Shown here piece by piece: positions 27,591 through 52,867 of a stretch of 64,000 nt of DNA (position 1 is the first letter of the stretch; every line of letters begins with the position of its first letter). The stretch covers positions 948,001 to 1,012,000 of the forward strand of contig NZ_CP141608.1 of the NCBI RefSeq assembly GCF_035581345.1, given 5' to 3'. Position numbers and translations under genes: made by a program. Under the pieces are notes generated by a model. The model was not told the origin of the DNA and did no database searches. It worked only from the letters and a program-made list of their open reading frames with translations. This stretch comes from Pseudomonas sp. JQ170C. GTDB lineage: Bacteria; Pseudomonadota; Gammaproteobacteria; Pseudomonadales; Pseudomonadaceae.

Positions 27591-27594
27591 GACA

Positions 27595-30042: not shown

Positions 30043-30047
30043 GCACC

Positions 30048-30491: not shown

Positions 30492-30495
30492 GAGA

Positions 30496-30800
30496 TCAGC
30501 TCGCGACTTTGAAACAGAGACAAACACTGGTCCCCGCCTGCTCTTGGCTACTGAGACTGACTTCCCCGCCAAAGCGCTCCATGATCTGCTTGACCATGAT
30601 CAAACCGATACCCAACCCACCCAGTTTGGTGGTGTAGAAGGATTTGAACGCCATCATCTCTTGCTGGCGGGTCATGCCTTTACCGGTATCGTTGATCGAG
30701 AGTGGAGCTTTAGCCCATCGGCAGACAGTGTGGTACTGATATCTAGCCGGCCACCCTCCGGCATCGCTTCAATGGCGTTGGCAATCACACTTTGATTCAT
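30496..30800 (-). pseudogene. C-terminal relic of a histidine kinase
   Basis: The reverse strand encodes NAIEAMPEGGRLDISTTLSA and, after a frameshift, INDTGKGMTRQQEMMAFKSF, then GGLGIGLIMVKQIMERFGGE, ending GTSVCLCFKVAS and stop. These are the N, G1 and G2 boxes of an NtrB/AtoS-type kinase ATPase domain. The N-terminal part is missing and the frame is broken. It is not the partner of the adjacent CzcR-like regulator, whose kinases are of a different class. Confidence 0.65.
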
Positions 30801-31895: not shown

Positions 31896-32400
31896 GGGGT
31901 TTTGTCTCGATATCGCTGAGCAATTAAATAGCGCCTGTGCGCCGGTAGTATTTAGTAAAATAGTAAATCAATTTTTGGCACTCAGGGTCTAAATAACGCA
32001 TTTGTAATTTATTGGTAATATGGCTGATAGCCTGGCGATATATTGTGTCGCAGCTTGGCTTGGAGGTGATATCAGCCGCTATTATGGTTCGCAGCATGAC
32101 AGTATGAAGTATTTTTTATTTCTGGTTTTTGTGTTGGGTGCGTTGAGGTCTGATTACAAAGAGACCTCACTCGATGAGGAGGCGGAACATTGGTGCAGCC
32201 ACGAGTTGCATCGTCATGTGATGGTGAAAGTTGGACGGCTTCTCGAATTTTAACCACGAAAAAAAAGGCGCCCAGAGGGCGCCAAATATTCACCTCTAAC
32301 CAAAGGAGCAATTAAGCTTCTTAAGGTGAATTAGTGGAACGAGTGGTGCTCAACGGCCTAATAGAATTAGTGCTCAGGGATCACTGATCCTATGAGGTAT
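31896..32400. other. intergenic region with regulator box and terminator
   Basis: AT-rich DNA between the orphan regulator and the oprD-type gene. It holds the CzcR-box-like sequence ACGCATTTGTAATTTATT (31996-32013), which precedes the regulator, and the oprD terminator at 32259. A 77-codon ORF (32020-32253) has no family signature or ribosome site and was not called. Confidence 0.5.
32259..32283 (-). terminator. terminator of the oprD-type gene
   Basis: Read on the reverse strand: GGCGCC, CTCT, GGGCGCC, then eight T. It lies about 120 bp after the porin stop. Confidence 0.85.
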
Positions 32401-33744: not shown

Positions 33745-33884
33745 TCAATGCTCCTTCGATTGCGGCAGCTTTTATTATGATTGTCCGACTCGGGTGTTTA
33801 GGTGATTGTTCTGACCCGGCGGCGCGCGTAGCGAAGCGCCTTGCGCAATACTTACAGGCGGAAGATAACGGGAGGGTGATAAGA

Positions 33885-33906
33885 TAATTACAATTTTGTC
33901 ATGTTG
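33885..33906. promoter_or_regulatory. candidate CzcR box before oprD-type gene
   Basis: TAATTACAATTTTGTCATG is near-identical to 42341 (AATTACAATTCCGTCATG) and similar to 40879. It lies about 140 bp before the porin start and 240 bp before czcC. Confidence 0.55.
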
Positions 33907-34009
33907 TTGTTATTCACTGTATAGGGCGCTCGCGCTGCCATGTACAGCCCTTCCTTAAACCCCATTGGATACGCAGTTTCTACAAGGTTTACGGGCAAAG
34001 CTTCGATTG

Positions 34010-34028
34010 ATTACGAAATTGTAATTTT
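34010..34028. promoter_or_regulatory. candidate CzcR box before czcC
   Basis: ATTACGAAATTGTAATTTT is an interrupted palindrome (ATTAC/GTAAT) 116 bp before the chosen czcC start. Confidence 0.55.
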
Positions 34029-34143
34029 CCAGCCACCCCTCTGATAGCTATCGCTGATTAGAGTGCCATCACCTAATCCAGTGGGGCTTGGCAGCTATTT
34101 CTGCATTCTCGCCAAGCTTTATCGAAGTTTGCGCACGAGGATC

Positions 34144-35424
34144 ATGAAAGTGCCCCGGTACGATAGAAATGTCTTGTTAAAGACCTCACAGTCTCCTTGG
34201 AGGCTACTTGCGCTCTGTGCGCTAATTACGGGCCTGATTACACCTGCAGCACTCGCTGGGCAAAGCATTAACCTCTCCCAAGCACTTTCCACTGCGATGG
34301 ATTCCAACCCTGATATGGCCGCTGCACGGCAGGAAATTGGCATTGCCGACGGGGCTCGTAAGCAGGCTGGTCTCATCCCTAACCCGGAGATTTCATACGA
34401 GGTTGAAGACACCCAGCGAGACACCAGTACCACCTCCGTATCGATTGCCCAACCCTTGGAACTTGGTGGAAAACGGGCCGCCAGAATCGAAGTTGCTACG
34501 CTCGGCCAGGGGATCGCACAGATGGAGCTGGAGCGTCGTGTGAACGGTCTACGAGCCGATGTTGTGCAAGCGTTCTACGCAGCCCTGCGAGCCCAGACGG
34601 GGCTCGACCTGGCCAAGCAGTCTCTTGACTTGACCGAGCGCGGACTGCGTATCGTGGATGGCCGCGTGCGGGCGGGTAAATCCTCACCGGTAGAGGCTAC
34701 ACGAGCTCAAGTGCAGTTAGCCGAGGCCAGGCTGCAGGTGCGTCGTGCCGAAACGGAGAAATCTACGGCATATCAGCAGTTGGCTCAGATCACTGGCAGC
34801 GCAGTTACGGTCTTCGACCGCCTTGAGTCACCCACCTTGTCTCCGGGCACACCGCCACGGCCAGCGGAGTTGTTGGCCAGGTTGGATCAAACCCCTGAGA
34901 TGCGTCAGGCCGTGGCGAAAATCGACCAGAATGACGCTTCGCTCGGCTCGGAGAAGGCCCAGCGTATTCCGAATCTGACAGTTAGCATTGGTAGCCAGTA
35001 CGACCGTTCAGAACGGGAAAGAGTCAATTTAGTTGGATTATCGATGCCACTTCCGCTGTTCGACCGTAACCAGGGCAACATCCTTTCTGCTGCTCGCCGG
35101 GCTGATCAGGCCCGTGATCAACGTAATGCTGTGGAGTTGAGGTTGCGTAGCGAAACTCAAACTGCTTTGAACCAGTGGGCTACCGCCATGCAGGAAGTTG
35201 AGTCCTATGACCAGACCATCCTGCCCTCTGCCCAACAAGCTGTGGATACCGCCACTCGCGGATTCGAGATGGGCAAATTCGGTTTCATCGAGGTACTGGA
35301 TGCCCAGCGCACCTTGATCGTTTCTCGTGGCCAGTACCTCGACTCGTTGGCTGCGGCAACCAATGCGCGTGCTCAGGTGGAACGGGTTTACGGCTACGTC
35401 GGTTCGGATGCCGGCGTTCGTTGA
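34144..35424 (+). CDS. czcC: CzcC-type outer-membrane efflux channel
   Basis: This 426-aa TolC-family protein has a signal region (LLALCALITGLITPAALA), then QSINLSQALSTAMDSNPDMA, the start of the outer-membrane efflux domain, and two helical repeats ending FGFIEVLDAQRTLIVSRGQY. It forms the exit duct of the CzcCBA Co/Zn/Cd pump. ATG 34144 was chosen over 34063 because the longer form has no signal-like start. A 218-bp gap without a gene separates it from czcB. Confidence 0.9.
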   Translation: MKVPRYDRNVLLKTSQSPWRLLALCALITGLITPAALAGQSINLSQALSTAMDSNPDMAAARQEIGIADGARKQAGLIPNPEISYEVEDTQRDTSTTSVSIAQPLELGGKRAARIEVATLGQGIAQMELERRVNGLRADVVQAFYAALRAQTGLDLAKQSLDLTERGLRIVDGRVRAGKSSPVEATRAQVQLAEARLQVRRAETEKSTAYQQLAQITGSAVTVFDRLESPTLSPGTPPRPAELLARLDQTPEMRQAVAKIDQNDASLGSEKAQRIPNLTVSIGSQYDRSERERVNLVGLSMPLPLFDRNQGNILSAARRADQARDQRNAVELRLRSETQTALNQWATAMQEVESYDQTILPSAQQAVDTATRGFEMGKFGFIEVLDAQRTLIVSRGQYLDSLAAATNARAQVERVYGYVGSDAGVR

Positions 35425-35642
35425 GCCTGCCAGACATTTTCTTCGTCATGCGGCAATCATTGAGTCGGGCACCAATGAAGCGCGCCGCGAGATTAGCAGG
35501 GCTGTGTGCGAAGGCTGAGCACACTCGGGCATACGGCATGACGCCTCGCCTGGTTACAGAACAACTTCATGTTTATCGAGTGTGTTTTGTCACCTTCGGG
35601 ACATGAGTCAAGTTCAATATTTTTGATAATTTGGAGTTACCA

Positions 35643-37232
35643 ATGGCATCAACAACTCCCCGAAAGCAGCGGCTGATGATTGCGGCCGTTGTCGTAATCG
35701 GTTTGGCCGCGGCGGGTCTAATTCTAAGTGGAAACCCGGGTCAGTCCGGGGAAAAAGGCCATGGTCATGGTGAAAGTCATGAGGAAGCGTCGGCTCACTC
35801 AGATCCCGAGCACCACGGCGAAGCTTCGGCGGAGGTGCATGAAGATGCCGACGAACATGCAGATGAAGAGCATCATGAGATCGAAGAGGCCACCAAGGGC
35901 GAGCATGGTGGCAAGCTTTTCACTGAGGGTAATTACGCGCTTGAAGTGACGATTTTTGAGGAAGGCGTAGAGCCTCAGTTCCGGCTCTATACCTACCTGG
36001 ACGGAAAGCTTCTAGACCCAGCTGCCAGTACTGCGCAAGTGACTTTGTCGCGTCTTGGGCAGGCTCCACAACTCATCAGCTTCAGCAAAGAGAATGATTA
36101 TCTTCGTGGCGATGCCGTTGTCGTAGAGCCTCATTCTTTCCAGGTTTCCATCAGCGCCAAGCACAAAGGCAAAAGTTACTCGTTCGGTTACGAGCAGGTT
36201 GAGGCCCGCGTGACCATGACGGATGTGCAGCTTGAGCAGGGTGGCGTCACGCTCGCCACTGCTGGTCCCGCGAAAATTGCTTCCACGCTGCAGGTGCTCG
36301 GTGAGGTTCGCTATAACGGCGACCGTACGGTTCAGGTGACCCCGCAACTTGCCGGTCGGGTCGATTCGGTGGCAGTTAGTGCTGGCGATACGGTCCGCAA
36401 GGGCCAGGTGCTGGCCAAGATATCCAGCCAAGCGCTTGCCGAACTGCGTGGCGAGCTGCTTGCTGCACAGCAGCGTTCGGCGCTTGCCCGCACGACCTAC
36501 TCGCGTGAAAAGCAATTGTGGGAAGAGAAAATTTCTGCCGAACAGGACTTCCTACAGGCGCAGGTTGCCATGCAGGAAGCCGCTATCGCGGTGCAGCGCG
36601 TCCAGCAACAAATCGCCTCGCTGGGCGGTACTCCAGCCAAAGGCCAGAACCTCACCGAGTTCGAGATTCGCTCTCCTATTGATGGCGTGATAACCAGCAA
36701 AAGCATATCGGTTGGTGAAGTTCTCAAAGAGGACTCTGCGGTCTTTACCGTTTCGGATTTGTCGACTGTGTGGGTGGATTCAACCATCGCGGCAAAGGAC
36801 CTGGGCGTAATCGCCGAAGGGCAAAAAGTTGTAGTGAGCTCCAGTGCATTCGTAGCCAAGGCGGAGGGTACCATTTCGTATGTCAGCGCTCTGGTTGGGG
36901 CACAAACCCGCTCCGCAACGGCTCGCATCGTTCTTGCTAATCCAGATCGGGTATGGCGTCCCGGTTTGCCGGTGACCGTCGAGGTGGTTGCTGCGGAGAG
37001 CGATGTTCCCGTTGCTGTGGCGGTCGAGGCGATCCAGACCGTTCGAGACTGGCAGGTGGTATTCGGCCGCTTCGATAACCAGTTGGAGGCTCGGCCTGTT
37101 GAACTTGGCAAGTCCGACGGACGCTTCGTAGAAGTTATCTCGGGTCTGAAGGTGGGTGATCGTTACGCACTGAAGAACAGTTTTCTGATCAAAGCTGAGC
37201 TAGGCAAAGCCGGCGCGAGCCATGACCACTAA
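35643..37232 (+). CDS. czcB: CzcB-type periplasmic adaptor
   Basis: This 529-aa membrane fusion protein has an N-terminal anchor (LMIAAVVVIGLAAAGLILSG) and a long His/Glu-rich segment (HGHGESHEEASAHSDPEHHG and onward to about residue 85) suited to Zn/Cd/Co binding. An extra beta-rich domain follows before the barrel-sandwich hybrid (VTPQLAGRVDSVAVSAGDTV). The ribosome site TTGGAG supports ATG 35643. It couples CzcA to CzcC. The PII-like gene follows after 14 bp. Confidence 0.92.
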   Translation: MASTTPRKQRLMIAAVVVIGLAAAGLILSGNPGQSGEKGHGHGESHEEASAHSDPEHHGEASAEVHEDADEHADEEHHEIEEATKGEHGGKLFTEGNYALEVTIFEEGVEPQFRLYTYLDGKLLDPAASTAQVTLSRLGQAPQLISFSKENDYLRGDAVVVEPHSFQVSISAKHKGKSYSFGYEQVEARVTMTDVQLEQGGVTLATAGPAKIASTLQVLGEVRYNGDRTVQVTPQLAGRVDSVAVSAGDTVRKGQVLAKISSQALAELRGELLAAQQRSALARTTYSREKQLWEEKISAEQDFLQAQVAMQEAAIAVQRVQQQIASLGGTPAKGQNLTEFEIRSPIDGVITSKSISVGEVLKEDSAVFTVSDLSTVWVDSTIAAKDLGVIAEGQKVVVSSSAFVAKAEGTISYVSALVGAQTRSATARIVLANPDRVWRPGLPVTVEVVAAESDVPVAVAVEAIQTVRDWQVVFGRFDNQLEARPVELGKSDGRFVEVISGLKVGDRYALKNSFLIKAELGKAGASHDH

Positions 37233-37246
37233 TTCGGAGTTGAGCT

Positions 37247-40722
<3,476 letters not shown>

Positions 40723-40814
40723 GTTCACAGCGCTATTTTTGTGTAAGTAAAAAAACTGCTCTTGAGCGCAATGCTGTTTACTTAAAGTCACAAATTGACG
40801 ATTCGCACTGAATA

Positions 40815-40841
40815 GCCCACAACACTTGTTGTGGGCTTTTT
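40815..40841 (+). terminator. terminator of the czc operon
   Basis: GCCCACAAC, ACTT, GTTGTGGGC followed by TTTTT, 93 bp after the czcA stop. Confidence 0.9.
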
Positions 40842-40878
40842 CTACTTGATTAGAACTAAGTGAATGGCATTACCTTTC

Positions 40879-40901
40879 AAAATTGTAAGTTTTTTGTCAT
40901 G
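40879..40901. promoter_or_regulatory. candidate CzcR box before DUF2790 gene
   Basis: AAAATTGTAAGTTTTTTGTCATG combines the ATTGTAA half-site with the TTTTGTCATG segment also present at 33885. It is 59 bp before the DUF2790 start. Confidence 0.5.
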
Positions 40902-40959
40902 TCGGTGATGCCAACGTATTGCTAAGGTACTCTCGAGATGGTTAATTTAAGAGAGTATT

Positions 40960-41283
40960 ATGAAAAAGCTTATTGTTACTGCGGCGCTGGTTATCTTCTC
41001 GGTGACTGCGCAAGCCAATACTTATTCCGAGAAACGTCAGCTGCAGTTCATTCAGGAGCATCAGAAGGCCGTAGCTGCCTACGCCGAGAAAAATGGTAAA
41101 CCAATGCCGGATATTCAAGACTACAAATACGGTATGAAGATCGACGTGGCTAAGTTTGTACGGCAGTCTCAAGACCCTCGAAACTGCTCAGTCTACCCAA
41201 GGCTCATGACCTTCGAAGACTCCATGGGTACACTAAAGACTTTTCGATACTCAATGTTTGCTACCTGTATCAATAATAAGTAG
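40960..41283 (+). CDS. DUF2790 small periplasmic protein
   Basis: This 107-aa protein has a signal peptide (MKKLIVTAALVIFSVTAQA) and the DUF2790 core IQDYKYGMKIDVAKFVRQSQ, with Cys at RNCSVYPRLMTFEDSMG and at FATCINN. It is paralogous to 18473-18805 (YGMKLDIAKV) but lacks the AEGGSDR start. It stands under a candidate CzcR box between czcA and a strong terminator, so metal induction is likely. Function is unknown. Confidence 0.78.
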   Translation: MKKLIVTAALVIFSVTAQANTYSEKRQLQFIQEHQKAVAAYAEKNGKPMPDIQDYKYGMKIDVAKFVRQSQDPRNCSVYPRLMTFEDSMGTLKTFRYSMFATCINNK

Positions 41284-41318
41284 GTTATCTTTGATTGCAA
41301 AAAATACGAACTCAAAAA

Positions 41319-41343
41319 TGCCAGGCAGTGCCTGGCATTTTTT
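41319..41343. terminator. terminator after the DUF2790 gene
   Basis: TGCCAGGC, AGT, GCCTGGCA followed by TTTTTT, with an A-tract before the stem. Confidence 0.9.
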
Positions 41344-42029
41344 ATTTGAAATCGATTTTAACGATGCGGGTCACGCTTTCTTGAGTTCTTTTGCAGCGCG
41401 TTGACCTGGATGGATAGGCCGAAGCTAATCAGTTCAGGATTTGGAACTGTGTAGGGCGTTTTCGTTCACCCTGCAGAAGTAAAGAGTTATGGGGAATCGG
41501 TCTGATGGCCCGGAAACCGTATGGTACCATTTCGATTCAGCTTGGTTTGTCCCTACTATTCGCGGCGGAGAGCAGTGCTGTGGCGTTACCCAACATTGGG
41601 GTGGAGCATCATCTTTGTGGGAATTATCGAAGCTTGCCTCAGAACCAGTTTGACGCTGTACAGGCTTGGCTGGATGTTGAATCAACCAGCACCAGCCATC
41701 TGTCTAGGACGTCACTCGTACTCGTCGGAGTTCTACCGCAACGATAAGTCCGAGAATATCAAGGATTCTACAAGGTGGCCGTATGATGGCATATTTTAAC
41801 GGGCCCAGACTGCACGCTGGTGTGAGCTACAGCAAAATCACTGAAGTCAACGTCATTCAGCTGCTGTTGTGTAAACGGCATAACGTTAAGTTTGAGACGG
41901 GCGGTTTTGCTGGAGAGGCCAAGGCTGAGCCAGCTAGAAAAGATAAACCAAAATTAGAATTAAAAAGCCAGGCAACTACCTGGCTTTTTGTTCGTCAATA
42001 TTGTCATTAGGAGTCCGGCTCCATTCCGA
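41344..42029. other. 686-bp stretch without a supported gene
   Basis: Overlapping ORFs occur (41505-41747, 41521-41799, 41783-42010), but none has a ribosome site, signal or recognisable family. The sequence may be a decayed gene. It ends in the hairpin at 41965. Confidence 0.45.
41965..41985. terminator. bidirectional terminator next to PtrA-like gene
   Basis: AAGCCAGG, CAACTA/CCTGGCTTTTT: A-tract, seven-pair stem and T-tract. On the reverse strand it follows the PtrA-like stop at 42030 by about 45 bp. Confidence 0.8.
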
Positions 42030-42245
42030 TTAGTTGTCGGACTTTTCCTGGCGTTTTTCGGGCTCTTTCTGTTGCTGTGCATCTTGCCCATTCTTTTTTT
42101 CCGACTGATCGCCCCAGAGACGGGCCTGTTCTGCTCGGAAGTCTTCGGTGAAGCTTTTCGCTCGTTCGAAGCCTCCTTCAGCATAAGCAGTGCCCATGAG
42201 ACCAAGAAGCAAGCTACCAACAGCGATAAATTTTACAAATCTCAT
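42030..42245 (-). CDS. PtrA-like small periplasmic protein (71 aa)
   Basis: This 71-aa protein has a signal peptide (MRFVKFIAVGSLLLGLMGTA), then AEGGFERAKSFTEDFRAEQ, the third or fourth instance of the AEGG-x-x-R start in this island, and a Gln/Glu/Lys-rich charged tail. No metal ligands (His, Cys) are seen in the mature part, unlike the 119-aa copy at 12829. A candidate CzcR box lies about 96 bp upstream. Function is unknown. Confidence 0.7.
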   Translation of the reverse strand: MRFVKFIAVGSLLLGLMGTAYAEGGFERAKSFTEDFRAEQARLWGDQSEKKNGQDAQQQKEPEKRQEKSDN

Positions 42246-42340
42246 GATGAGCCTCTGAACATACTAGTAGGCTGGCCAGCGTGGCTGCCTTTGTTGCTTA
42301 GCAGTTTAGGAACGAGAAGCTAACGCCATGATGAGTCAAT

Positions 42341-42360
42341 AATTACAATTCCGTCATGTT
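42341..42360. promoter_or_regulatory. candidate CzcR box
   Basis: AATTACAATTCCGTCATG matches 33886-33903 at 16 of 18 positions. It could serve the PtrA-like gene to the left. Confidence 0.5.
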
Positions 42361-42843
42361 CCGGAGCGGTGCACAGTCTTTAGCCCTTAAATTCATGGGC
42401 GTGGTGTCTATCTCAGCGTTGTCGGGGCGGTGACAGAAGCGCACTCTTTTGCTTTTCTCGTTGTTGATGAGGTAATTAAACCGATGATTTTCGAACTGTT
42501 CACTGCTTATCAGCGACCAACCAGTAGTTTTTGCAGATCTGAAACGTATGCCTGCTTATGCTAAAAGGTATGTGTTGACCGTACCGACTGAATTCTTAAT
42601 TTTGGCGCTGATATGTGTTTGCCCGACCATGTATTTGGCCTATAGCTTGGATGCCGTAAGCGCTCAGGAGAAAGTTAACGTATATTATTTTGTGCACTTA
42701 TGGAGAGATTTTCGCGTCTCTATGGATCCGCAAATCATGGAGCGTTAAGGGTCTTTGCTGAATGAGAGAGACCCGCCTATCGACAGACCCTCTCTTCTAC
42801 AAGGTGTATCGCTGAGTTAAATTCTAAATTGAGCCGTTTGTAC
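42361..42843. other. intergenic region with one doubtful small ORF
   Basis: A forward 66-codon ORF (42548-42748, start MPAYAKRYVLTVPTEFLILA) has one hydrophobic segment but no clear ribosome site or family. It is recorded here rather than called. Nothing else is seen. Confidence 0.35.
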
Positions 42844-44262
42844 TTAAGTGACCCCGCTGGCGTGATGTCTCGCATGTTCTTCTGGAAAGCTCAGATGGAA
42901 CCATGTGAAATTCTCATCGACAACTTCTACATCAGCCACGCCGTGGTGCAGGCACATGATTGATTGGACAATGGCTAAGCCTAGCCCTGTGCCGCCTTCG
43001 CTCCTTGCGCGGCTTTTGTCTACTCGATAAAAGCGTTCGAACAAATGTGGCAGATGTTCTTTGGGGATTCCACGGCCAGGATTGCCTACGCTCAGTGTAA
43101 CGCCGCTCGGTCCTCTATGGACTCTGACAAAGACTGTCCTTCCGCTTGGGCAGTATCTGATCGCGTTGGAAAGAAGGTTCGAGACTGCACGCTGAATCAT
43201 CAGCCTGTTCCCTTGCACTACGTCCGCGCAGCCAGAGATCTGCAGCTGGACTTCACTTTCCTCAGCCGTGATGCTGAAAAGGTCGCACACCCGCTGAACT
43301 TCGTCCACCAACACAATGGCCTCGAAATCGACCAAGGAAGCCGGATGGCTGACCTGGGCTAGGAAGAGCATGTCGGAAACCATACGGCTCATACGGTCCA
43401 GTTCCTCAGTGCAGGATTCGAGCACGTCACGGTATTCCTCAGGTGATCTATCCCTAGTCAGCGCTACCTGGGCCTTGCCCATCAGGTTAGAAAGGGGGGC
43501 CCGGAGCTCGTGTGCGAGATCGTCAGAAAACTGCGAGAGCTGCTGCACGCCATCATCCAAGCGAGCGAGCATGATGTTGATCCCATCAGCTAGCTCCTTC
43601 AGTTCTGCCGGCATGCCATTGGTTGGGAGTCGATGCTCAAGACTCTCGGTGGAGATCTTTGATGCGACTTTCAAGAACTTAGTCAGTGGCAATAAGCCGC
43701 GGCGGACGGTCCACCAGCCGATGACGAGGATTAGCGCAAGGAGGAGGGGGGATACCATTAGAGCCCAGGTCAACAACGCCTTTAGCAGAGCCTTGTTGGA
43801 GGTCTGGTCCATGGTCATGTAGACGCTTACCTCTCTGCCATTTCCTAATTGCATGATGCGCGACGTGCTCAGCATCGGTCTGTCCAGCGAGTCGCGCCAC
43901 TCATATTCTTCCATCTGTACAGTGGCGCGGAACTGGTGTACCTCTTGGTTGACCTGCTTGGACCCAATCGTGAGTAGCGGGGTCTGACTCTGTGCCGGCT
44001 GGAAAATGCTCACGTACAGGTTGTTATGGCCCATGACCAGGTCGACAAGCTGATGTGCGTCTGCGGTAACGCCGGAAATGTCCGTAATGCTGGACAGATT
44101 GTGAGCCATCCCGCTCATTTTGACGACGAGATCACTTCGTGCCGTCCTTTCAAGAGCTTGGCCCACCATCAGGTAGCCGAAGGTGGCAAACATCAGCAAC
44201 AAAGTCGCGCTCATCAACCCAACTTTAAGTCCCAGCTTTACGGCCAGGCTGAATGGCCTCAT
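42844..44262 (-). CDS. czcS: heavy-metal sensor histidine kinase CzcS
   Basis: This 472-aa kinase has TM1 (GLMSATLLLMFATFGYLMVG), a periplasmic domain of about 130 residues, TM2 (ALMVSPLLLALILVIGWWTV) and HAMP. The DHp motif is FSDDLAHELRAPLSNLMG, and the ATPase boxes include NLLSNAIRYCP and GTGLGLAIVQSI. It responds to periplasmic Zn/Cd/Co and phosphorylates CzcR. The start overlaps the czcR stop as ATGA. Confidence 0.88.
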   Translation of the reverse strand: MRPFSLAVKLGLKVGLMSATLLLMFATFGYLMVGQALERTARSDLVVKMSGMAHNLSSITDISGVTADAHQLVDLVMGHNNLYVSIFQPAQSQTPLLTIGSKQVNQEVHQFRATVQMEEYEWRDSLDRPMLSTSRIMQLGNGREVSVYMTMDQTSNKALLKALLTWALMVSPLLLALILVIGWWTVRRGLLPLTKFLKVASKISTESLEHRLPTNGMPAELKELADGINIMLARLDDGVQQLSQFSDDLAHELRAPLSNLMGKAQVALTRDRSPEEYRDVLESCTEELDRMSRMVSDMLFLAQVSHPASLVDFEAIVLVDEVQRVCDLFSITAEESEVQLQISGCADVVQGNRLMIQRAVSNLLSNAIRYCPSGRTVFVRVHRGPSGVTLSVGNPGRGIPKEHLPHLFERFYRVDKSRARSEGGTGLGLAIVQSIMCLHHGVADVEVVDENFTWFHLSFPEEHARHHASGVT

Positions 44263-44933
44263 GCACGCTCCTCAAAAATGTACCCAACGCCTCGCAGCGT
44301 ATGAATGAGTTTGGTTTCAAATGGATCATCGATCTTCGAGCGCAGGCGCCTGATAGCGACATCAATGACGTTGGTGTCGCAATCGAAACTTATGTCCCAG
44401 ACCAGCGAGATGATTTGTGAGCGTGTCAGTGCTTCGCCTGTACGGCTCATCAGCAAGCGCAACAAGGCAAACTCCTTCGTGGTGAGGTCAATCCGTGTTC
44501 CCCCCCGGAACACCCGATGACGTTCAGAGTCCAGCTCCAGGTCGCCGATTTTGAGTGTGCTCTTTTCTACGAGCTCATCGCCGCGTCGCTGCAGCGATCG
44601 AATACGGGCGAGCAGCTCTGGAAACTCGAACGGCTTAACGAGGTAATCATCTGCCCCGCCGTCTAGGCCCTTGAGTTTGTCATTGATACGGCCGCGAGCG
44701 GTCAGCATGATGATGCGAACACGGCTCGTATGTCTGATCGTTTGGAGAAGATCCCAGCCATCAATGCCAGGTAGGTTCACATCCAAAAGAACTAGCGAGT
44801 AGGTGTTGTGACTAAATAAGTGTAGGGCGTCAACACCATTATGCGCTATATCAACGACATACCCGCTTTCGGAGAGGCCCTGCTGAAGATATTCAGCAGT
44901 CTTTATTTCGTCTTCCACAACTAGCACGCGCAT
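44259..44933 (-). CDS. czcR: OmpR-type response regulator CzcR
   Basis: This 224-aa regulator starts MRVLVVEDEIKTAEYLQQGL, with the phosphoacceptor in LVLLDVNLPGIDGW and the winged helix ending DPFETKLIHTLRGVGYIFEE. It is closely similar to the orphan at 31221. It probably binds the ATTACAA...TTGTAAT-type boxes scattered through 31.9-45.1 kb, including TACAAATTTGTA 182 bp upstream of itself. ATG 44933 was chosen because the extra MRSI of the upstream start is outside the family alignment. Confidence 0.9.
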   Translation of the reverse strand: MRVLVVEDEIKTAEYLQQGLSESGYVVDIAHNGVDALHLFSHNTYSLVLLDVNLPGIDGWDLLQTIRHTSRVRIIMLTARGRINDKLKGLDGGADDYLVKPFEFPELLARIRSLQRRGDELVEKSTLKIGDLELDSERHRVFRGGTRIDLTTKEFALLRLLMSRTGEALTRSQIISLVWDISFDCDTNVIDVAIRRLRSKIDDPFETKLIHTLRGVGYIFEERA

Positions 44934-45843
44934 AATTGATCTCAAGATGTGAGGGGTGAGAAGTTTGCCTAGTGCACTAATAACATCGCTGTAGGTTGCA
45001 AAGGTAGGTCGGAGTAGTGCATAGCACTCAGTATGTCTCTAATATTAAGCATACCTCATGGTCACTTTATGGCGTGTGAATTTTAACGTGAAGTAAAGGG
45101 CTTTGGCGAAATCCTACAAATTTGTAATATGGTTGCAAGCTTTCTGACATCTATGTTGGCTTACCCACCTGAGCATAGCGGGTTCTATGGTATCCCGCGG
45201 TTGATGATGGTCACGGCTGACAGGCAGATTAGGCCGGGAAACGCTGCATTTGTAGCAAAAAATTGAATGTGCCGAGGGTGTCGGTGGCAGTAAACTTAGG
45301 GTGTGGTTCGCGTTGAAAATGACCTAAGACTCTGTTAATGAATATTTTATTATAGGGCGGTTGCAGGCGTTGGTGCGATTGCATATGTTCTATGCATATT
45401 TGAAGGTGCTATTGCTTGTCTACATTGTAATTACCTTGCCATTCTTATTTTAGTCTTCTTTGCCAGGCTATCCGAAGTATCAGAGGTAGTGCTTTTTGGG
45501 AAGTGTCTAATTTCAGAGTGGCATGATGATGGCAATGAGAGCCCGAGCCTTAGTGGAGGCTGAACTAGAGTAGCTGGTCACTGGCGTCGCAGGTCTCGTG
45601 CAGTCGGTTGCTCGCGGCCATCGGATTTTCACTATCGCAGCAGTAGATGATCTTTACGAAATAAAGGTTTGCTAGGTTGTCGTCGCTGGTGCGGTAGCAT
45701 GATGACAATTCCGGCTGATATTACGGGCATTGAACAGTTGCTCCTAAACGAGCCTCGGGAGTCCGCAGCGTGCTGACACTCATCCTCCCGCGCTCGAACC
45801 GGCGTCTGCCGGCAGGGCAGGGGTTACGACGGCGGTAGTTTTA
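44934..45843. other. 910-bp AT-rich junction between czc and recombinase modules
   Basis: It contains the palindrome at 45115 and otherwise no convincing gene. On the reverse strand near 45,550-45,700 an open stretch reads CYRTSDDNLANLYFVKIIYC, then ENPMAASNRLHETCDASD and stop. It has no ATG start and may be a gene relic. The GC-rich segment at 45,770-45,835 is unlike its AT-rich surroundings. Confidence 0.45.
45115..45126. promoter_or_regulatory. candidate CzcR box upstream of czcRS
   Basis: TACAAATTTGTA is a perfect 12-bp palindrome, followed by ATATGG, upstream of czcR. It is the most symmetric member of the repeated motif set. Confidence 0.6.
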
Positions 45844-46098
45844 TTATTTTGTAGTGTTTAGTTCGTCAAGAGCCGAAATGTTATTTTTAAATGCGACGGC
45901 AAATATAGCTCGATTCTTAGCCATGAAGATGCTCGCTTCCTCAGCAATGTCCTCAGAGATACCAGGAACATTTTTTAATAGAAGCTGGGTCAGTGATTCA
46001 CTAAGCTCAAGCATTTGGTCATGGGCGTCAGCAAGCTTCCTGTCCAAAAAAGTAGTCTCCAAATCACGTGTGCTACGGTAGAGAGTTTCTACAGCCAT
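45844..46098 (-). CDS. YebG-family protein carried by the island
   Basis: This 84-aa protein starts MAVETLYRSTRDLETTFLDR, with ADAHDQMLELSESLTQLL and EEASIFMAKNRAIFAVAFKN, covering the full YebG family. E. coli yebG is a DNA-damage-inducible (SOS) gene of unclear function. This copy is AT-rich, unlike the host stub at 52523 (MAVEVVYRSSRDLERLF), so it is foreign and not a piece of the host gene. GAGGG precedes the ATG. No CTG-N10-CAG LexA box is seen upstream, so it may depend on read-through from the recombinase operon. It is complete and may replace the disrupted host gene. Confidence 0.8.
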   Translation of the reverse strand: MAVETLYRSTRDLETTFLDRKLADAHDQMLELSESLTQLLLKNVPGISEDIAEEASIFMAKNRAIFAVAFKNNISALDELNTTK

Positions 46099-46126
46099 GT
46101 CTGGCCCTCATGTGGTGTAGGTTTAG

Positions 46127-46143
46127 CTGAGCAAGATGCTCAG
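46127..46143. repeat. inverted repeat between yebG copy and recombinase operon
   Basis: CTGAGCA, AGA, TGCTCAG: a perfect 7-bp inverted repeat just after the last recombinase gene and before the yebG copy. It could be a protein-binding site or a weak terminator. No T-tract follows. Confidence 0.5.
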
Positions 46144-46209
46144 AATCGATTTTACATGCTGAGTCGCATCTGTGCAGAGGCGATTGTAAGATAAAACTAT
46201 CAAAATGAA

Positions 46210-47568
46210 TCAAAGTAGCGCTTCGAATGACAGCAGCAAGTCGAGTAATGCTTTAGTTTCCTTGGAGGGACGCTGTTCTGTAAGGTTAGCCAGCAGCGCC
46301 GTTGCTTGCTCCCGTATGGCGTCGATCTCCGTCAGTGTTTTGAACTTCGGTGAGGTCTTGGATATCGCCATTGCCTCTTCCCATGCTAGGTGGATGTAGC
46401 GTTCTAATGATGCAAGACGTCGATGGCCAGTTAGCTCCTGAATCTTACGCTTTAGAGACTCTGTTTCCAGTATTGCTTGTTTGAAATCCTCAAGGCTGTC
46501 GGCTTTCTGTCTCAGAATTTCTGCAACAAATATTTTTGTTATGAAACGGTGGCGAAATAGGTGCGGACTAACAGGGTCCAAAATTTTTCCTAGCTTCGCG
46601 ATGTGTTGAATTTCAGCTGTGAAAGCGTTTGGTGTCAGGGGGTTCCCAGTTCTTTCGTTCAGAAATAGATAGTCGTGCGTGGTCTTGAGTCTACGTGCTA
46701 GGGGAGCTCTCACGTACTCAATGTAGTCCGTAAGTAATTTTAAATCTGCCTGAGATATCGGGATTTCTCTGAATCGCCCAGAATCGTCCGCAGCCGGGTT
46801 TATGCTGCGTCTGACACCACCTTTTAGAGTGACGACCCGCAAATGTTGTGTCTGGACCGCTGCTCTAACGTCTCTCACCCGAAGCTGCCCTACCTCCGCG
46901 CGCCTCGCCCCTAGCATCTCGAAGCAGCGGATCATGACACGTCGTCTTGATTTGACATATGGGGACGCCGATGCGTCTGCAGCTGCGGCAAGGCGAAGAC
47001 ACTTTATTGTCTCAATATTTATTGGGAAACGCTCCTCGACCCTTGTCATTGGAGGTATCGCCGAGTGAGACTTTGAGTTTCGAATAAGCTTTGATCCGTC
47101 GGGAGTGAAGATCGTTTGTTCTATTGCTGTAATGGTTAAGCGACTAGGTGAATGGAACTCTCTAGATAAAAAATCGATAAAGTCTACGCAGTTTTTTGCA
47201 ATGTTTTTAACTGTGTTTTGGGTGCGTAGTTTTGTACCATCCGCTCTGCGTTGGCCGAGTAGGGTTGTGACAAAAAAATTGAATTGCAAATCGGTGAGAT
47301 CAAGAAATCTTGTATTTTGTGCATCGCAATAACGTATCAGGTGGCTAATGTTTGTGGCGTAAGAGAGTAGTGAACCACCTCTGTCGCTTCTTGAAAGCCC
47401 CCTATCATAGAGCTCCAATAGCCATATGTTAGCTTCGATGCACCACGAGCCGCTTGGCCATCTAAGTGTTGGGATATTTCCTGCATCACTGAGGATGATC
47501 GAGTGATCAGGTTTAACAGCGAACGGAAGTTTTTGATTGATGTTAATATGTTTATAGAGCTTTTTCAT
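46210..47568 (-). CDS. tyrosine recombinase, fourth gene of GInt-like operon
   Basis: This 452-aa site-specific recombinase is the most canonical of the set. The Arg I region is MLGARRAEVGQLRVRDV. The HxxR box is SPHLFRHRF (His336, Arg339), followed by LTGHRRLASLERYIHLAW with His382 and the probable nucleophile Tyr391. An N-terminal SAM-like core-binding domain precedes this. The start overlaps the small HTH gene by 17 bp. It should cut and join island attachment sites together with the two larger recombinases. Assignment to the ginABCD block rests on gene number, sizes and order. Confidence 0.85.
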   Translation of the reverse strand: MKKLYKHININQKLPFAVKPDHSIILSDAGNIPTLRWPSGSWCIEANIWLLELYDRGLSRSDRGGSLLSYATNISHLIRYCDAQNTRFLDLTDLQFNFFVTTLLGQRRADGTKLRTQNTVKNIAKNCVDFIDFLSREFHSPSRLTITAIEQTIFTPDGSKLIRNSKSHSAIPPMTRVEERFPINIETIKCLRLAAAADASASPYVKSRRRVMIRCFEMLGARRAEVGQLRVRDVRAAVQTQHLRVVTLKGGVRRSINPAADDSGRFREIPISQADLKLLTDYIEYVRAPLARRLKTTHDYLFLNERTGNPLTPNAFTAEIQHIAKLGKILDPVSPHLFRHRFITKIFVAEILRQKADSLEDFKQAILETESLKRKIQELTGHRRLASLERYIHLAWEEAMAISKTSPKFKTLTEIDAIREQATALLANLTEQRPSKETKALLDLLLSFEALL

Positions 47569-48079
47569 GAAGCTTGCCCGCTAACGTTCCCACAGTTGAC
47601 AGCATATCAAGCAGCTCGCTTGATTCTTTTGCATAAAGTGCCGATGCTACGCTGTCGTTGCAAAGCTGAGCAAAGGACCGAGTTTGGCGCATGGATAGTC
47701 GCAGCAGCTTGGTTATAGCCAATAGATCCAAATTCAGCTGAGCATTTTCTTGTGTGAGTTTGGCTATTGTGTCTTTTTGACTTTTTCGTTTTACCGAGGT
47801 CGGCGTAGTAGCCTGTGTCACTGCACTCAAAGCGCTGGCCCGTAGCTGATCCAAGTGCGTAAACCCACCAGGAGCGTAATGCTCACAGTGACGTTTCAAT
47901 GTGTTCAATGATGTTTTGGAAATCCCCAGCTTTTCAGAGTGATAGCTCGACAGCTTTCCCTGGCTTTTGAGCGATGAAAGAAGCACAGAGTCTTGTAAGT
48001 ATGCGGCCGGATTAGCAGAAACTAAAACTAGTAGTTTGCACAAATTTTGGATTGACTGCTCTTGAGTAGCACTACTCAT
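47552..48079 (-). CDS. small HTH/coiled-coil protein of the recombinase operon
   Basis: This 175-aa protein has a probable helix-turn-helix around residues 40-65 (KLSSYHSEKLGISKTSLNTL) and a following helical segment with coiled-coil character (QKDTIAKLTQENAQLNLDLL). It has no recombinase residues. It overlaps the 702-aa recombinase by 4 bp and the 452-aa one by 17 bp. GInt islands carry one such non-recombinase gene required for excision. A directionality or accessory role is inference. Confidence 0.7.
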   Translation of the reverse strand: MSSATQEQSIQNLCKLLVLVSANPAAYLQDSVLLSSLKSQGKLSSYHSEKLGISKTSLNTLKRHCEHYAPGGFTHLDQLRASALSAVTQATTPTSVKRKSQKDTIAKLTQENAQLNLDLLAITKLLRLSMRQTRSFAQLCNDSVASALYAKESSELLDMLSTVGTLAGKLHEKAL

Positions 48080-50184
48080 GTATTATTTCCTTTGTCTCGA
48101 ATTGTGGCGATGATTCTATAAGGGGTGCCGTCCGAGCCAGTCAGAAATTCTGGTTCTATTTTTACTGATCCGGTCGAAATGCAATAGAGTAGATACTCTT
48201 CTATTTGTTCTTCTGGTAGTATTGCAAAATCAGATATTTGATAATGCTTTTGTATGAAAGTGGTAAGGTTACTTACCTTATCGGGCTCTGCGCGAAGCAT
48301 CCGTGCGCCCCACTCTGCTTTCACCTCTCTCAAGACCTGACCTGGTGTGCTTTCGGTAATGTAGTGGTAAATCATCTCGCTATCGCCGTGGCCAAGCACC
48401 CACCTCAAAATATCCAAAGTGTCTTCTTTTTCTGTTTGATGCCAAAAGAAAACTTGCGCAAAGAATCGTCGAAGTTGGTGATGCCGCAAATAAAACCGAC
48501 GCCCTCTATCGTCTAGGGGAGTTTGAAAGTAATCGCAAAAAATGTCGAACTTCAACTGAGATGTGTGCGGGTGCAAGTTCTCGAGCCTGCCGTTTTTTAA
48601 TGGCCCGCTTAGTACTTCTCTGTGCCGGTCGAGTAAGCCAAGTTTTATTAGGCTTGCCTGCATGGTCTCTAAGCTTTGAATCATGTCCGCAGCGATATGG
48701 GGTATTGGTCGAACAATTTTTACGTTCAGTCCGTAAAGCCCGGTTTTTCGATTGACTGTTTCAAGGGATCGGTGGTCTGAGGAAAGGCATTGGCCTGCGA
48801 TAATTTTCCTCAGTTCCGAAGCACGCCGAGCCTGTAGTACTCCTAGCGTGACTTGGATCGCCCCCAGTAGTACCTGCATGAGTTCGTGGAGTGAGGGAGT
48901 TGATCGAAGCGAGTCAAATTTCGCCTTGAAGTTAGGGTCGTTTTTTCTGGTGCGGGAAGAAAATTGCTTGTTCCAGACATTTACATTGAGTGCGCTCAAT
49001 TTTCCATCTAGGTAGCGGGATATATCAATAGACTCGCATCGTGTGGATTGATACGGTATTCCCATAATTATCACTGATTCCATTAGCCTTAGGTAGCTTG
49101 AAATGATTGCTTTGCCATATTCAAGATAGAACTCAATTGAGTCTCTAAGGCACTTTAGGGTGAGCGCTACAGGCAGCGAGGTGAAACGTCCTACTTTGCT
49201 TAGGTTAAACTGCTCCTCAAGGTATTCCGAGGATGGGATTTCGAGATCTGAAACTGGTGTGAGATTAGAGTTCTGTCGTAACACCCTTAAAACTTCAAAT
49301 GTTGAAAGAATCGCTCCGGTTGCAGGCGGAGTCATACTTGCATGTCTTGCGCGTACGGGAACCCGTGAGAACTCAGGGACTTGATAGTTGCGAGGCTTTA
49401 GCACGAAAAAAGTAGGGATCGGATAGTGTTTTACTCCGCCTAATGTATTCACATATAGGATTCTAGCTATTTTTGTTGTGTCGATAGTGAGTGCTGATCG
49501 CGGGCCGCAAATGTAAAATCCCGCAAGCCAAAGCGCCGCTCGCACCGTGCAAATATCTTCGCGTTGCGGGAAATCGTCACGCAGCGCATCCTCGATTTCT
49601 AGGATACTTTGCGATAACTCCTCCCATGGCTCCGTCAAGATTGGGTAATCTTCGAGTGCCTGATAAATTTCAATTTTTGGGGTTGACTCAACTAAACCTT
49701 TCAGGAAGCCTCTAAGTTTTTCTGGCCATTCATACACCACAGTAGAAAGGTTGGGTGAGCGGCCACAGCTTGCAAGCAGCGCCTTAAGATTGTTGCTGTT
49801 AAGCAATTTTAAGCCATGTTCGTGTATGCGGAAGCTGTCGTTATTAATTAGTAGCCAGTCAATCACACCGACTGTATTTGCAACCTTCCTTTGCATTGTC
49901 GAATTTGATAGTGTGGACATCGGGTTGTAGTTTGTTCCGGCAGCGCAAATCCACCTTTTAAAAAGTCTGCACAAATCTCCATCCAAGCAAGATGTAAGGG
50001 GGACGGTTTCGACCAAGATTCTGAAGTCGATGCGCATAGGTTCGGATAGACCAAAGTCGAGATCCCAAGTTTCCGCTTCAAATTTGTTTTTAAGGAAGGG
50101 GGCTGAATCGAATGGTGTGGGTTCGCTTCCGAAATACTTATCAAAGTACTCAATATTTGCTTTGAGGAAGTCTAGGTTATCCAT
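48076..50184 (-). CDS. large tyrosine recombinase, second gene of GInt-like operon
   Basis: This 702-aa protein has its catalytic part near residues 550-610. RHHQLRRFFAQVFFW supplies HxxR, and VLGHGDSEMIYHYI supplies GH and the probable nucleophile Tyr. ARRASELRKIIAGQCL matches the Arg I box. The 430-residue N-terminal region is unlike ordinary integrases. It overlaps the first gene by 8 bp and the third by 4 bp, so expression is coordinated. It belongs with the other two recombinases as one machine. Confidence 0.8.
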   Translation of the reverse strand: MDNLDFLKANIEYFDKYFGSEPTPFDSAPFLKNKFEAETWDLDFGLSEPMRIDFRILVETVPLTSCLDGDLCRLFKRWICAAGTNYNPMSTLSNSTMQRKVANTVGVIDWLLINNDSFRIHEHGLKLLNSNNLKALLASCGRSPNLSTVVYEWPEKLRGFLKGLVESTPKIEIYQALEDYPILTEPWEELSQSILEIEDALRDDFPQREDICTVRAALWLAGFYICGPRSALTIDTTKIARILYVNTLGGVKHYPIPTFFVLKPRNYQVPEFSRVPVRARHASMTPPATGAILSTFEVLRVLRQNSNLTPVSDLEIPSSEYLEEQFNLSKVGRFTSLPVALTLKCLRDSIEFYLEYGKAIISSYLRLMESVIIMGIPYQSTRCESIDISRYLDGKLSALNVNVWNKQFSSRTRKNDPNFKAKFDSLRSTPSLHELMQVLLGAIQVTLGVLQARRASELRKIIAGQCLSSDHRSLETVNRKTGLYGLNVKIVRPIPHIAADMIQSLETMQASLIKLGLLDRHREVLSGPLKNGRLENLHPHTSQLKFDIFCDYFQTPLDDRGRRFYLRHHQLRRFFAQVFFWHQTEKEDTLDILRWVLGHGDSEMIYHYITESTPGQVLREVKAEWGARMLRAEPDKVSNLTTFIQKHYQISDFAILPEEQIEEYLLYCISTGSVKIEPEFLTGSDGTPYRIIATIRDKGNNT

Positions 50185-52459
50185 TTGATGAGATGCCTAT
50201 GTCGCTCATTGGGCCAAGTTCCTTCGCAAGTTTGAATACTTCGAGGGCTTCAAAGCTGTTGTCTTTATCAGAATGTAGATGGTCAAGTAAGTGCTCGCAA
50301 AACTCTGCCCAATGCATAAGGTTTTCGCTCAATTCGACTTCTTCTCTACGCTCTTTCAAGGTCAGTAGTATTCTCGCGACGGGCAAACTAATTGATATAA
50401 GGACCTTGGTGTTGCCTGGTCGAGTTGGATCTGGTAAGATAGGCAGAGTTTCTTCGTTTATGTCAGGTAGTGTGTGGTTTTCCAGAAATGAGGCGAGCTC
50501 ATGGTCATTAGTGAAATTTGTCGCCTCTAGTAGGAGCTTGCTGGACTTCATTGCTTGAACTATTACCCCTGTCTGAAAAACTCTAACCCACCGGTCCCGA
50601 AAGTAATGCAAGATACTTGTGGGTAAGTAGGTCGCTAGTAATTTTGGGTCGTAGTTAGCGTGACCTAATACCTTTGCCATCGAATGGAGGCTGCCAGTCT
50701 CTAGGAAATGTACGACGCCGGATGTGGTTCTCATTTTTGAGGGGCAGAGAATAGCCTTGGCGAAGTGCTCGAGTTCTTCCGGTTTCCAATGGGATAAGTC
50801 ATGGGTTGTTGTGAGTTCGTTTACTAGGTTCTTTACTCGTCCGTCGTCAGTTTTTGCTTTGCACCCGAACTCACATGGAGGGCCTACGAATTGCCTGGAG
50901 GTCAGCAGTAGCTTTCGCCATCGTGGGTCGTTTGTTTTTTTTAAGGACGCACGCAGTGGTGAAGTGATGTCAACTAGTAGTTGAACTATTTTCTTTGATT
51001 CTTCATTCAGTGGAATTCGAATTTCAGATTTGCTGGGGCCGCGCCGATCTTTATGGCCATGCAGGTATTCTATTGTGTCTCCCGAGTCTATACCCCTGCA
51101 CTTGCCATTTTTATCAAAGATCGCCACGCTGGTGAGAAAACTTGGGGTGATCTTAGGGTCTAATGAAATAAGTTTTATGCATATTGGTATTAAAGCGTCA
51201 GTGGTTGGTAGTCCTAGGCTTTCAGCAATGGGGCCGTGAGAAACGTTGCAGTTTTTGAGAACGCGTCGGAGTTCGTCGTATCCATATATTTCTAGGGTTG
51301 CGGCGAGATTTTTTAGCTGGTCTGGATTATCGTTCGACGCGAGCCAGGCGTTAGGCTCATCGTGTAGTCTGGAGCCCGTAAGTATAGGTTTGCCATCTCG
51401 AGCTAAAAGAGCGAGTCTCTTGTTGGCAGTCTGAACCCTTTGAACAACTCTGTTACACCATTCAATTGCTGCGCTATGGCAGAAAATGATCCGTCTTTTC
51501 AGGTGTCGAAATGCTTCGTCATCTGAGATATGGAGGGGGATCTCTGTCAAGAGATTGGCTTTTACAATTCCGCCCGAGCGTTCTTTTAGATTTTTGTTTT
51601 GTCCGCGTGAATCGGTCGGGGCCGGATCGGCGAGACAATCAGGTTTTGCAAAAAGACCATTCGGAATAAGTTGGGTTTTGATAAACGGTATAATTTGATA
51701 GCGCCAAGAAGCTATGGCAGTCTCATGATGTAGGTTCTTTTCTACGGAGCTAAGGTAAAGGTGTCTCCACAGGGCGCTGAAAAAAAGAGTGGAGCCATCT
51801 TTGTTGCTAAAATCCGCTTCGTCGAACTCATTTGGATATATGGAAAGGTACGAGCTAAATAAACTGACAAATTGAATGTTTGGCAAGCGACGGCCTGCAA
51901 GATACGTTTCGCATATGTTGTATAACAGCTGGGTGAATTTCCTACCATATGAGTAATAAACGTTGACGAGGGGTAAGTTGACAGTTTTCCCTGCTCCGTT
52001 GAGGCATGCCCACCCGGACCAGTACCAGACTTTCTCCTCATTCAAATGTAAGCTTTCAAAGGCTGAACGATACTTGATAAATAATGGATTGGCGGTCGTA
52101 TCCGAACCAAACGTTGAAAAGGGCGGGGCGTCATGTTGGGATCTGACGCAGTTTACGACAGCCGTAAGTTTTCTAATGATTGTAGAAATCGTCCCTTTAG
52201 TTAGGGTGGCGAATTTCGGGCTTGATAGAGCGCCGCAAAACGTGGCGAGAATCTCATCGCTGGCAGTGGACGCGACATCCTGATAGGTAAGCGTTTGATC
52301 CGTAATCTGAAGGTAGCACTCGAGATAGCGGAGCGTGCTAGTAATGCGCTGCCCCTGAGGAATATGGTCTCTGGCAAAGAGGGAGAGAGGCCGCTCTTCA
52401 AGATTTTCAAACGGATGGTCCGCCCGCGCGATTATGTCTTTGATAATTGTCAATGTCAT
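50177..52459 (-). CDS. large recombinase-like protein, first gene of GInt-like operon
   Basis: This 760-aa protein has a C-terminal half that aligns with the tyrosine recombinase end: PSKMRTTSGVVHFLETGSLH, then VLGHANYDPKLLATYLPTS. The usual HxxR motif reads SKMR, so the first catalytic His is a Ser; the Arg, GH and Tyr are retained. A Cys-containing segment (PPCEFGCKAKTDD) is present. The start is 64 bp inside the junction with host yebG. No separate promoter is obvious, so transcription may come from the host yebG promoter. Confidence 0.75.
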   Translation of the reverse strand: MTLTIIKDIIARADHPFENLEERPLSLFARDHIPQGQRITSTLRYLECYLQITDQTLTYQDVASTASDEILATFCGALSSPKFATLTKGTISTIIRKLTAVVNCVRSQHDAPPFSTFGSDTTANPLFIKYRSAFESLHLNEEKVWYWSGWACLNGAGKTVNLPLVNVYYSYGRKFTQLLYNICETYLAGRRLPNIQFVSLFSSYLSIYPNEFDEADFSNKDGSTLFFSALWRHLYLSSVEKNLHHETAIASWRYQIIPFIKTQLIPNGLFAKPDCLADPAPTDSRGQNKNLKERSGGIVKANLLTEIPLHISDDEAFRHLKRRIIFCHSAAIEWCNRVVQRVQTANKRLALLARDGKPILTGSRLHDEPNAWLASNDNPDQLKNLAATLEIYGYDELRRVLKNCNVSHGPIAESLGLPTTDALIPICIKLISLDPKITPSFLTSVAIFDKNGKCRGIDSGDTIEYLHGHKDRRGPSKSEIRIPLNEESKKIVQLLVDITSPLRASLKKTNDPRWRKLLLTSRQFVGPPCEFGCKAKTDDGRVKNLVNELTTTHDLSHWKPEELEHFAKAILCPSKMRTTSGVVHFLETGSLHSMAKVLGHANYDPKLLATYLPTSILHYFRDRWVRVFQTGVIVQAMKSSKLLLEATNFTNDHELASFLENHTLPDINEETLPILPDPTRPGNTKVLISISLPVARILLTLKERREEVELSENLMHWAEFCEHLLDHLHSDKDNSFEALEVFKLAKELGPMSDIGISSNG

Positions 52460-52484
52460 ACCCCGCCGAGAAAACAGGCTTGCC

Positions 52485-52502
52485 AGCAGCTAGCAAGCTG
52501 CT
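52485..52502. repeat. inverted repeat at the island's right end
   Basis: AGCAGCT, AGCA, AGCTGCT: a perfect 7-bp repeat between the recombinase start and the yebG junction, overlapping a second dyad GCTTGC...GCAAGC. It is a likely binding site for the island recombinases. Confidence 0.55.
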
Positions 52503-52522
52503 TGTGCTAGGTATAGACAAGA

Positions 52523-52630
52523 TTATGCAGAACGCAAAACCAGCTTCTTGTCGTGACGGTCTGCTTCAGCTTTATCCATGAACAAGCGCTCCAGATCGCG
52601 GCTGCTGCGGTATACCACTTCGACGGCCAT
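52523..52630 (-). pseudogene. yebG: 5' stub of host yebG disrupted by the island
   Basis: Starts MAVEVVYRSSRDLERLFMDK, continues AEADRHDK and then diverges into KLVLRSA and a stop. YebG proteins continue HDKMLEL at this point, so the break falls at codons 28-29, close to 52,548. The GC-rich codon use matches the core chromosome, unlike the island copy at 45844. The ribosome site GAGGTG and the LexA-type box at 52672 are intact. The remaining 35 codons cannot give a functional protein. Confidence 0.82.
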
Positions 52631-52671
52631 TCATCACCTCACATGCCTTTTGAATAACAGTGTGCTTAGCA

Positions 52672-52687
52672 CTGTGTTTTTGTACAG
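52672..52687. promoter_or_regulatory. LexA (SOS) box of yebG
   Basis: CTGTGTTTTTGTACAG fits the CTG-N10-CAG LexA consensus and lies 42 bp before the yebG start. yebG is a known SOS gene in E. coli. It now controls the truncated yebG and, by read-through, probably the recombinase operon. Confidence 0.75.
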
Positions 52688-52867
52688 TGTTAATGATAGG
52701 GTAATCCTCAGGACTAAGATAGTGGCAATTCAGCAGTCTGCCGTGCGGGACAGGTCGCGTCGGTTTTTCCAGCCCTGGCGCGGCACTTTTACCGCTCTCA
52801 ATGGTCTTGTCCTGCGTGTAGAATTCCTGGGCAGGCCGTCAGTTATCTAGTCAATCAAGGATTTGCA

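Follow-up and report, generated by a model that had tools for sequence, protein, structure and literature searches.

A Pseudomonas island splits the SOS gene yebG and carries a second yebG behind a four-gene recombinase operon

Among described integrative elements, the closest in plan to the locus reported here is SE-6283. According to the available part of its description, this element sits in bcp and also carries bcp, as if complementing the disrupted gene (PMC9345347), and the annotation of pSEA1 places bcp directly behind four SE core genes. A second point of reference is the GInt, whose gin operon is transcribed from an internal promoter as well as from outside, as stated in the excerpted report (PMC5385486). 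A third is provided by integrative elements whose attachment site rebuilds the target on insertion, the targets being tRNA genes in the accessible section of the source (PMC4383910).

Here we analysed a stretch of 64,000 nucleotides (the window; positions 948,001 to 1,012,000 of the genome) from Pseudomonas sp. JQ170C. It contains most of an island of 68,179 bp, measured from outer end to outer end (genome 932361-1000539) and delimited by a split host gene together with an inverted repeat. The island occupies 1..52539 of the window, and its left 15.6 kb lie beyond it, in locus L004. We interpret it as a yebG-inserted integrative element that replaces the SOS gene lost on insertion, with transcription of its recombinases tied to DNA damage as a by-product, and we assign this interpretation a probability of roughly 0.7. 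Substitution of the SOS gene is its better-supported core; capture of the SOS promoter is supported in part.

The genome is a single contig of 5.94 Mb, in which dsbB is divergent from host yebG. Two lineages of yebG, type I and type II, occur in Pseudomonas and are about 60% identical. As the earlier note had observed, the host frame is intact for 28 codons and then broken. The 5' stub (codons 1-28, 84 host bases; 52547..52630, minus strand) translates as MAVEVVYRSSRDLERLFMDKAEADRHDK, followed by seven island-coded residues and a stop codon at 52523-52525. The missing part of the protein, MLELAELLAEVL...TPAE, is encoded on the same strand 68 kb from the stub, by a 3' remnant outside the window (about genome 932182-932361; 932.18-932.36 kb). 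When 15 type-I native loci were compared by script, an uninterrupted CA(C/T)GACAA(A/G)ATGCT was found across the break point in 14, L061 being the one that did not fit the pattern. The break is thus real, since 14/15 type-I natives continue through that point.

Read in the yebG sense, the right junction passes from host CACGACAAGA through AGCTGG into TTTTGCGTTCTGCA..., and the left junction from ...TGTAGAAAGCAAAA through TGCTCG into host AACTGG. Native genes of relatives carry ATGCTCG, ATGCTGG or ATGCTTG at this site without a break. This indicates that TGCTCG, the far-junction spacer, which is as in native host genes, belongs to the host, and that AGCTGG, the 6-bp spacer at the host/element end (52540..52545, minus strand), belongs to the element. 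The island ends form an imperfect inverted repeat with 12 of 14 positions matched, a value reached by none of 200000 random island pairs, and the imperfect direct repeats AAGAAGCTGG and AAAATGCTCG agree at 7/10 positions by hand count. The element tip carries a motif C-like sequence, TTTTGCGTTCTGCATAATCTTGTCT (52515..52539, minus strand), whose first 14 bases lie in the inverted repeat. When a tip motif was built from 33 relatives, with the present sequence left out, the first 25 island bases scored 17.7 bits against it, and the maximum among 2000 shuffles was 13.6. The motif lies mostly 51-55 bases upstream of R1 in relatives (one outlier at 131) and 61 bases upstream of it here.

Behind the stub, four overlapping genes (gaps of -8, -4 and -17), R1 to R4, are encoded on the same strand as yebG. 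R1 (50177..52459, minus strand; 760 aa) opens with an ATG at 52459, 63 bases past the stub stop, in agreement with the earlier placing of a first recombinase gene just past that stop; alignment of homologues suggests a TTG at 52453 as its start. A tyrosine-recombinase fold is predicted for R1 with moderate model confidence; its catalytic Arg I and HxxR His are missing, and we regard it as the Tfp/GinC analogue. R2 (48076..50184, minus strand; 702 aa) is a large tyrosine recombinase with residues R454, K480, H569, R572, H599 and Y608, to which we assigned the catalytic roles. R3 (47552..48079, minus strand; 175 aa) is a small protein conserved in the operon, similar in size to Srap/GinD, with a marginal profile match to one Srap. 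R4 (46210..47568, minus strand; 452 aa) is an ordinary tyrosine recombinase (Phage_integrase PF00589, 3.3e-14) with R222/R223, K249, H336, R339, H382 and Y391. The catalytic set is complete in R2 and R4. R1-R3 matched no NCBIfam or Pfam family at the limits used (1e-3 for NCBIfam).

Of the 22 named loci that were fetched, 18 contain the four genes in identical order; three of the remaining loci stop at a contig end, and L051 holds a partial R1 only. Loci with R1-R4 include Methylophilus, Methylotenera, Paucimonas, Caballeronia, Serratia, Hafnia, Kordiimonas and other Pseudomonas. R1-R4 mark out a four-protein tyrosine-recombinase element family with a recognisable tip, for which we found no name. 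The genes upstream of the R1 relatives include comM in sense and, in antisense, that of an HrpB-type helicase, as named from their translations. Many loci of the family, which shares the 25-bp tip motif, are in genes read as comM (sense) or hrpB (antisense) (L006-L056, L105, L119-L121). No second case of R1-R4 at yebG was found among the genomes searched. The closest relative of R1 (58%, P0002) and an island-type yebG (87%, P0012) share the figure of 7181 bases for the longest contig, which suggests that R1-R4 and yebG may travel together.

The earlier note had mentioned neither the hairpin at 52478-52498, considered below, nor the second yebG at 45844-46098 (minus strand). The latter is a complete island-borne gene of type II, 84 aa long, 111 bases after R4. 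It scores 77.9 bits against PF07130 (cut-off 27.5; 5.6e-22), which makes it a member of the YebG family, and is 57.5% identical to host yebG and up to 80% identical to the type-II natives sampled. No good LexA box was found within the 320 bases upstream of it, where a weak CTG-N10-CAG lies at -195, inside R4. The gene is also preceded by a weak promoter-like sequence (TGCACA-N16-TAAAAT), so that it need not depend on 6.5 kb of read-through. The gap between R4 and yebG also holds a perfect 7-3-7 palindrome, CTGAGCA-TCT-TGCTCAG in the yebG sense (46127-46143), which lacks LexA spacing and could be an operator, or a terminator on the other strand. The remaining cargo, as read from its ORFs, is largely metal-resistance-like, with two RND pump sets (window 3936-9834 and 34063-40722) and a copper oxidase-like gene (window 13832-15742). 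Response regulator/kinase genes also occur in this cargo (window 1-42000).

A survey of the genus revealed that the combination of a split yebG and a second copy recurs. A YebG match was present in 392 of 398 Pseudomonas genomes. We inspected 123 of these singly, by our reading of the list all with more than one match or with an E-value above about 6e-41; each of the remaining 269 gave a single match, whose E-value was better than that of any split piece. yebG was split in 8/398 genomes (G000, G004, G096, G101, G136, G301, G358 and G390), every one of which also has a full-length type-II copy, and no split yebG without a substitute was seen among the 398. Stub and remnant fall on different contigs in five drafts (G004, G096, G136, G301, G390), the copy being on the stub's contig. 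A ninth split genome, G724, came from another draw; a single contig of it holds both a full copy and a remnant. The eight cases amount to about five distinct islands, the yebG copies being identical among G101/G301/G358 and between G004/G390. The 320 bases upstream hold a good LexA box in none of the eight island copies, as against all nine type-II natives read (at 92-207 bases). The nearest natives of the island copies differ among the nine sampled (78-89% identity), so that yebG has, judging from these identities, probably been captured more than once. Type-II yebG is often near a gene that we read as psiE-like.

The seven other islands share a layout of their own. Their yebG breaks after about codon 17, and the substitute ATG lies 304-374 bases from the stub ATG on the same strand, between the LexA promoter and the cargo. 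A four-gene operon encoding about 412, 490, 720 and 148 residues lies beside the 3' remnant, antisense to yebG; in G358 its ORFs are fragmented. We call this operon ginABCD-like and the islands GInt-like from their layout and the published description rather than from a sequence match to the type member. Kilobases of metal-gene cargo are common to the present island and several others, at 68-76% nucleotide identity. The islands have thus exchanged modules, and the yebG substitutions may not be fully independent. A module of an HTH protein, a protein of about 192 aa and a helicase-like protein of 461 aa near the 3' remnant is likewise common to the present island (L004:4846-7097; genome 932846-935097) and G096 (L100:11433-13710), with 65-72% nucleotide identity.

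We asked whether the second yebG could be ordinary cargo, present by chance. In favor of this, 15 records of Pseudomonas plasmids contain YebG genes, and G030, G038, G105 and G063 have a second YebG match although their host yebG is intact. Against chance stand the presence of a copy in 8/8 split genomes, its position near or behind the stub and on the same strand, its want of a good LexA box, and the SE/bcp precedent. We therefore consider chance carriage very improbable. A counter-case to substitution is G030 (L096, G030:C26), where a GInt-like end lies away from yebG together with a copy that matches the one in G004/G390 exactly, and host yebG is intact. A YebG gene is also found on one Pseudomonas phage record (Y12).

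Upstream of the stub, the host promoter retains its LexA-type box (CTGTGTTTTTGTACAG, or CTGTACAAAAACACAG in the yebG sense; 52672..52687, minus strand), reported as intact in the earlier note, and a -10-like TATCAT (52693-52698). The CTG-N10-CAG box starts 57 bases before the start codon here and 56-60 bases before it in 14 type-I natives, so that, by sequence, a conserved SOS-type box marks a putative LexA-regulated promoter in all of these. In P. aeruginosa, PA3413 and PA3414 are up after H2O2, and PA3414 is called a 'YbeG' homologue, in the available text of PMC1250226. The pattern CTGTN8ACAG occurs at 53 sites genome-wide, versus 16 for the reversed control. The same whole-genome scan found none inside the island; the sites next to it on either side lie at 753 kb and at 1,058 kb.

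From this arrangement the earlier note had proposed that the island entered yebG so as to borrow its promoter; on that reading, the insertion was selected since the LexA promoter would make recombinase expression and excision responsive to damage. The geometry on which that proposal drew is borne out: the island lies in yebG, the box is intact, the operon is on the same strand, and a scan of 52460-52523 returned weak promoter-like sites only, in line with the claim that the operon has no obvious promoter of its own. A site matching 10 of 12 promoter positions at 52459-52431 coincides with R1's own start and thus could not serve the whole R1 gene. The degenerate tip promoter and the lack of CTGTN8ACAG on the island speak for the proposal as well. 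As a purpose, however, it was not supported. In 7/8 islands the operon lies at the opposite end from the promoter and in antisense, and SOS-promoter capture cannot therefore explain repeated insertion in yebG. Moreover, the R1 relatives are found in different targets, which we read as comM and hrpB, and the leader hairpin is in the way. We know of no SOS link for comM or hrpB. Selection for a damage-responsive promoter is thus an unlikely reason for the insertion. Driving recombinases is not a trait common to these islands, given their position at the far end in seven of them; bringing yebG is.

A different view, to which we give more weight while still doubting it, is that the operon runs from a promoter at its own tip, either with TTGTC as -35 or as TTGCGT-N16-TATACC (a weak site overlapping the tip), that the hairpin insulates it from read-through out of the host, and that the SOS promoter has no bearing on mobility. 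Among 32 relatives a -10 peak follows TTGTCA by 16-17 bases, with a median best score of 1.37 (maximum in 300 shuffle rounds, 0.74), and an internal promoter is reported for the gin operon, in addition to outside transcription (PMC5385486, in part). The present tip, by contrast, has a -10 score of -3.36. Four of the 32 relatives score lower still, so that loss of the tip promoter is nothing special to this island. The strong leader hairpin (52478..52498, minus strand; -16.2 kcal/mol), with its T-rich tail, resembles a terminator or attenuator, or an operator dyad. Terminator-like sites in the region number nine, versus a chance mean of 7.8, and as a class are not above chance. Of 33 leaders compared, the present one is the most stable in folding energy, as insulation would have it; its z of -3.4 ranks third, behind L040 and L121. 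Stable leaders are no family feature, however (mean z of relatives, -0.5), and masking of the SD by the leader was not above shuffles, 76% of 300 being at least as closed. As predicted from its fold, the hairpin could end or attenuate read-through. SOS-driven expression of the recombinases is accordingly plausible, at about even odds, as far as the sequence can tell.

We therefore favor replacement of the lost gene. The 68-kb element with R1-R4, presumably mobile, has inserted in yebG and split the host gene, and it carries a xenologous yebG that lacks a good LexA box and follows R1-R4 in the same direction. Read-through from the LexA promoter of the host would then join R1-R4 and the substitute yebG in a single unit, by which the lost SOS gene function may be replaced. 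Transcription of the recombinases would become tied to DNA damage as a by-product of orientation. A bolder extension holds that yebG is a shared docking gene since YebG matters to the islands themselves: each of these different four-recombinase islands would destroy host yebG and put a captured YebG back behind the host's LexA promoter. In the present island, recombinases and YebG would make up a single damage-induced unit, and damage would supply both the recombinases and a DNA-binding excision helper. We regard this as quite unlikely.

Cumulatively, the survey presents the following: 1) one SOS gene serves as a repeated integration site of two recombinase systems without detectable relation, the generic recombinase domain apart; and 2) the substitute lacks a good LexA box in every case seen. 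These islands offer a clean test of whether such elements keep a broken host stress gene working and gain stress-responsive mobility.

Compared with known systems, the present island shares with the GInt (ginABCD) a recombinase operon of four genes at one of its ends, a large cargo and imperfect direct repeats of about 10 bases, and it resembles the GInt-like yebG islands in carrying a substitute yebG. It differs from the latter in gene order, in the break (codon 28 here, about codon 17 there) and in the opposite orientation relative to yebG. For R1, R2 and R3 no relation to the gin-like proteins of these islands was detected, R4, the ordinary recombinase, alone giving a match; ginABCD with GinC and GinD homologues was thus not found here by comparison with the gin-like operons of the yebG islands, which were used in place of the type GInt (P. 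stutzeri DSM 4166). Like target-restoring elements, the island may let its target's function survive insertion, but it supplies a complete divergent gene instead of the missing host end. For the Gamma-mobile-trio (GmtX/Y/Z), R1-R3 had no NCBIfam match at 1e-3, NCBIfam being a collection that should include GMT models.

The comparison with SE elements (strand-biased circularizing integrative elements, which by definition circularize with strand bias and leave no empty site) is closer. In the available part of their description, SEs have a core of a degenerate recombinase-fold protein, a large and an ordinary recombinase and a small protein, as well as imperfect inverted repeats with a 6-bp spacer (PMC9345347), and all of these have counterparts here. 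The split attB at both ends, with possible imperfect inverted repeats and a 6-bp spacer, that marks an SE in the accessible text of PMC10214605 is present. Homology of core proteins to known SEs (Tfp, Srap) was not found in comparison with SE-6283 and SE-6945: R1, R2 and R3 showed no clear similarity to Tfp, IntB and Srap of these two, with none between R1 and Tfp and a marginal 9.5 bits between R3 and Srap among eight sequences. The gene order is ordinary-degenerate-large-small in SEs and degenerate-large-small-ordinary here; the element's 6 bp lie at the operon-proximal end, the reverse of what we take the SE rule to be; and the R1-R4 family, unlike SEs, is also found in Betaproteobacteria. 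SE-6283 targets bcp and the present island yebG, and each brings a substitute for the gene in which it sits, placed immediately after its core genes. SE-6283 is the nearest precedent, and its plan recurs here with another gene order and an SOS gene as a new target.
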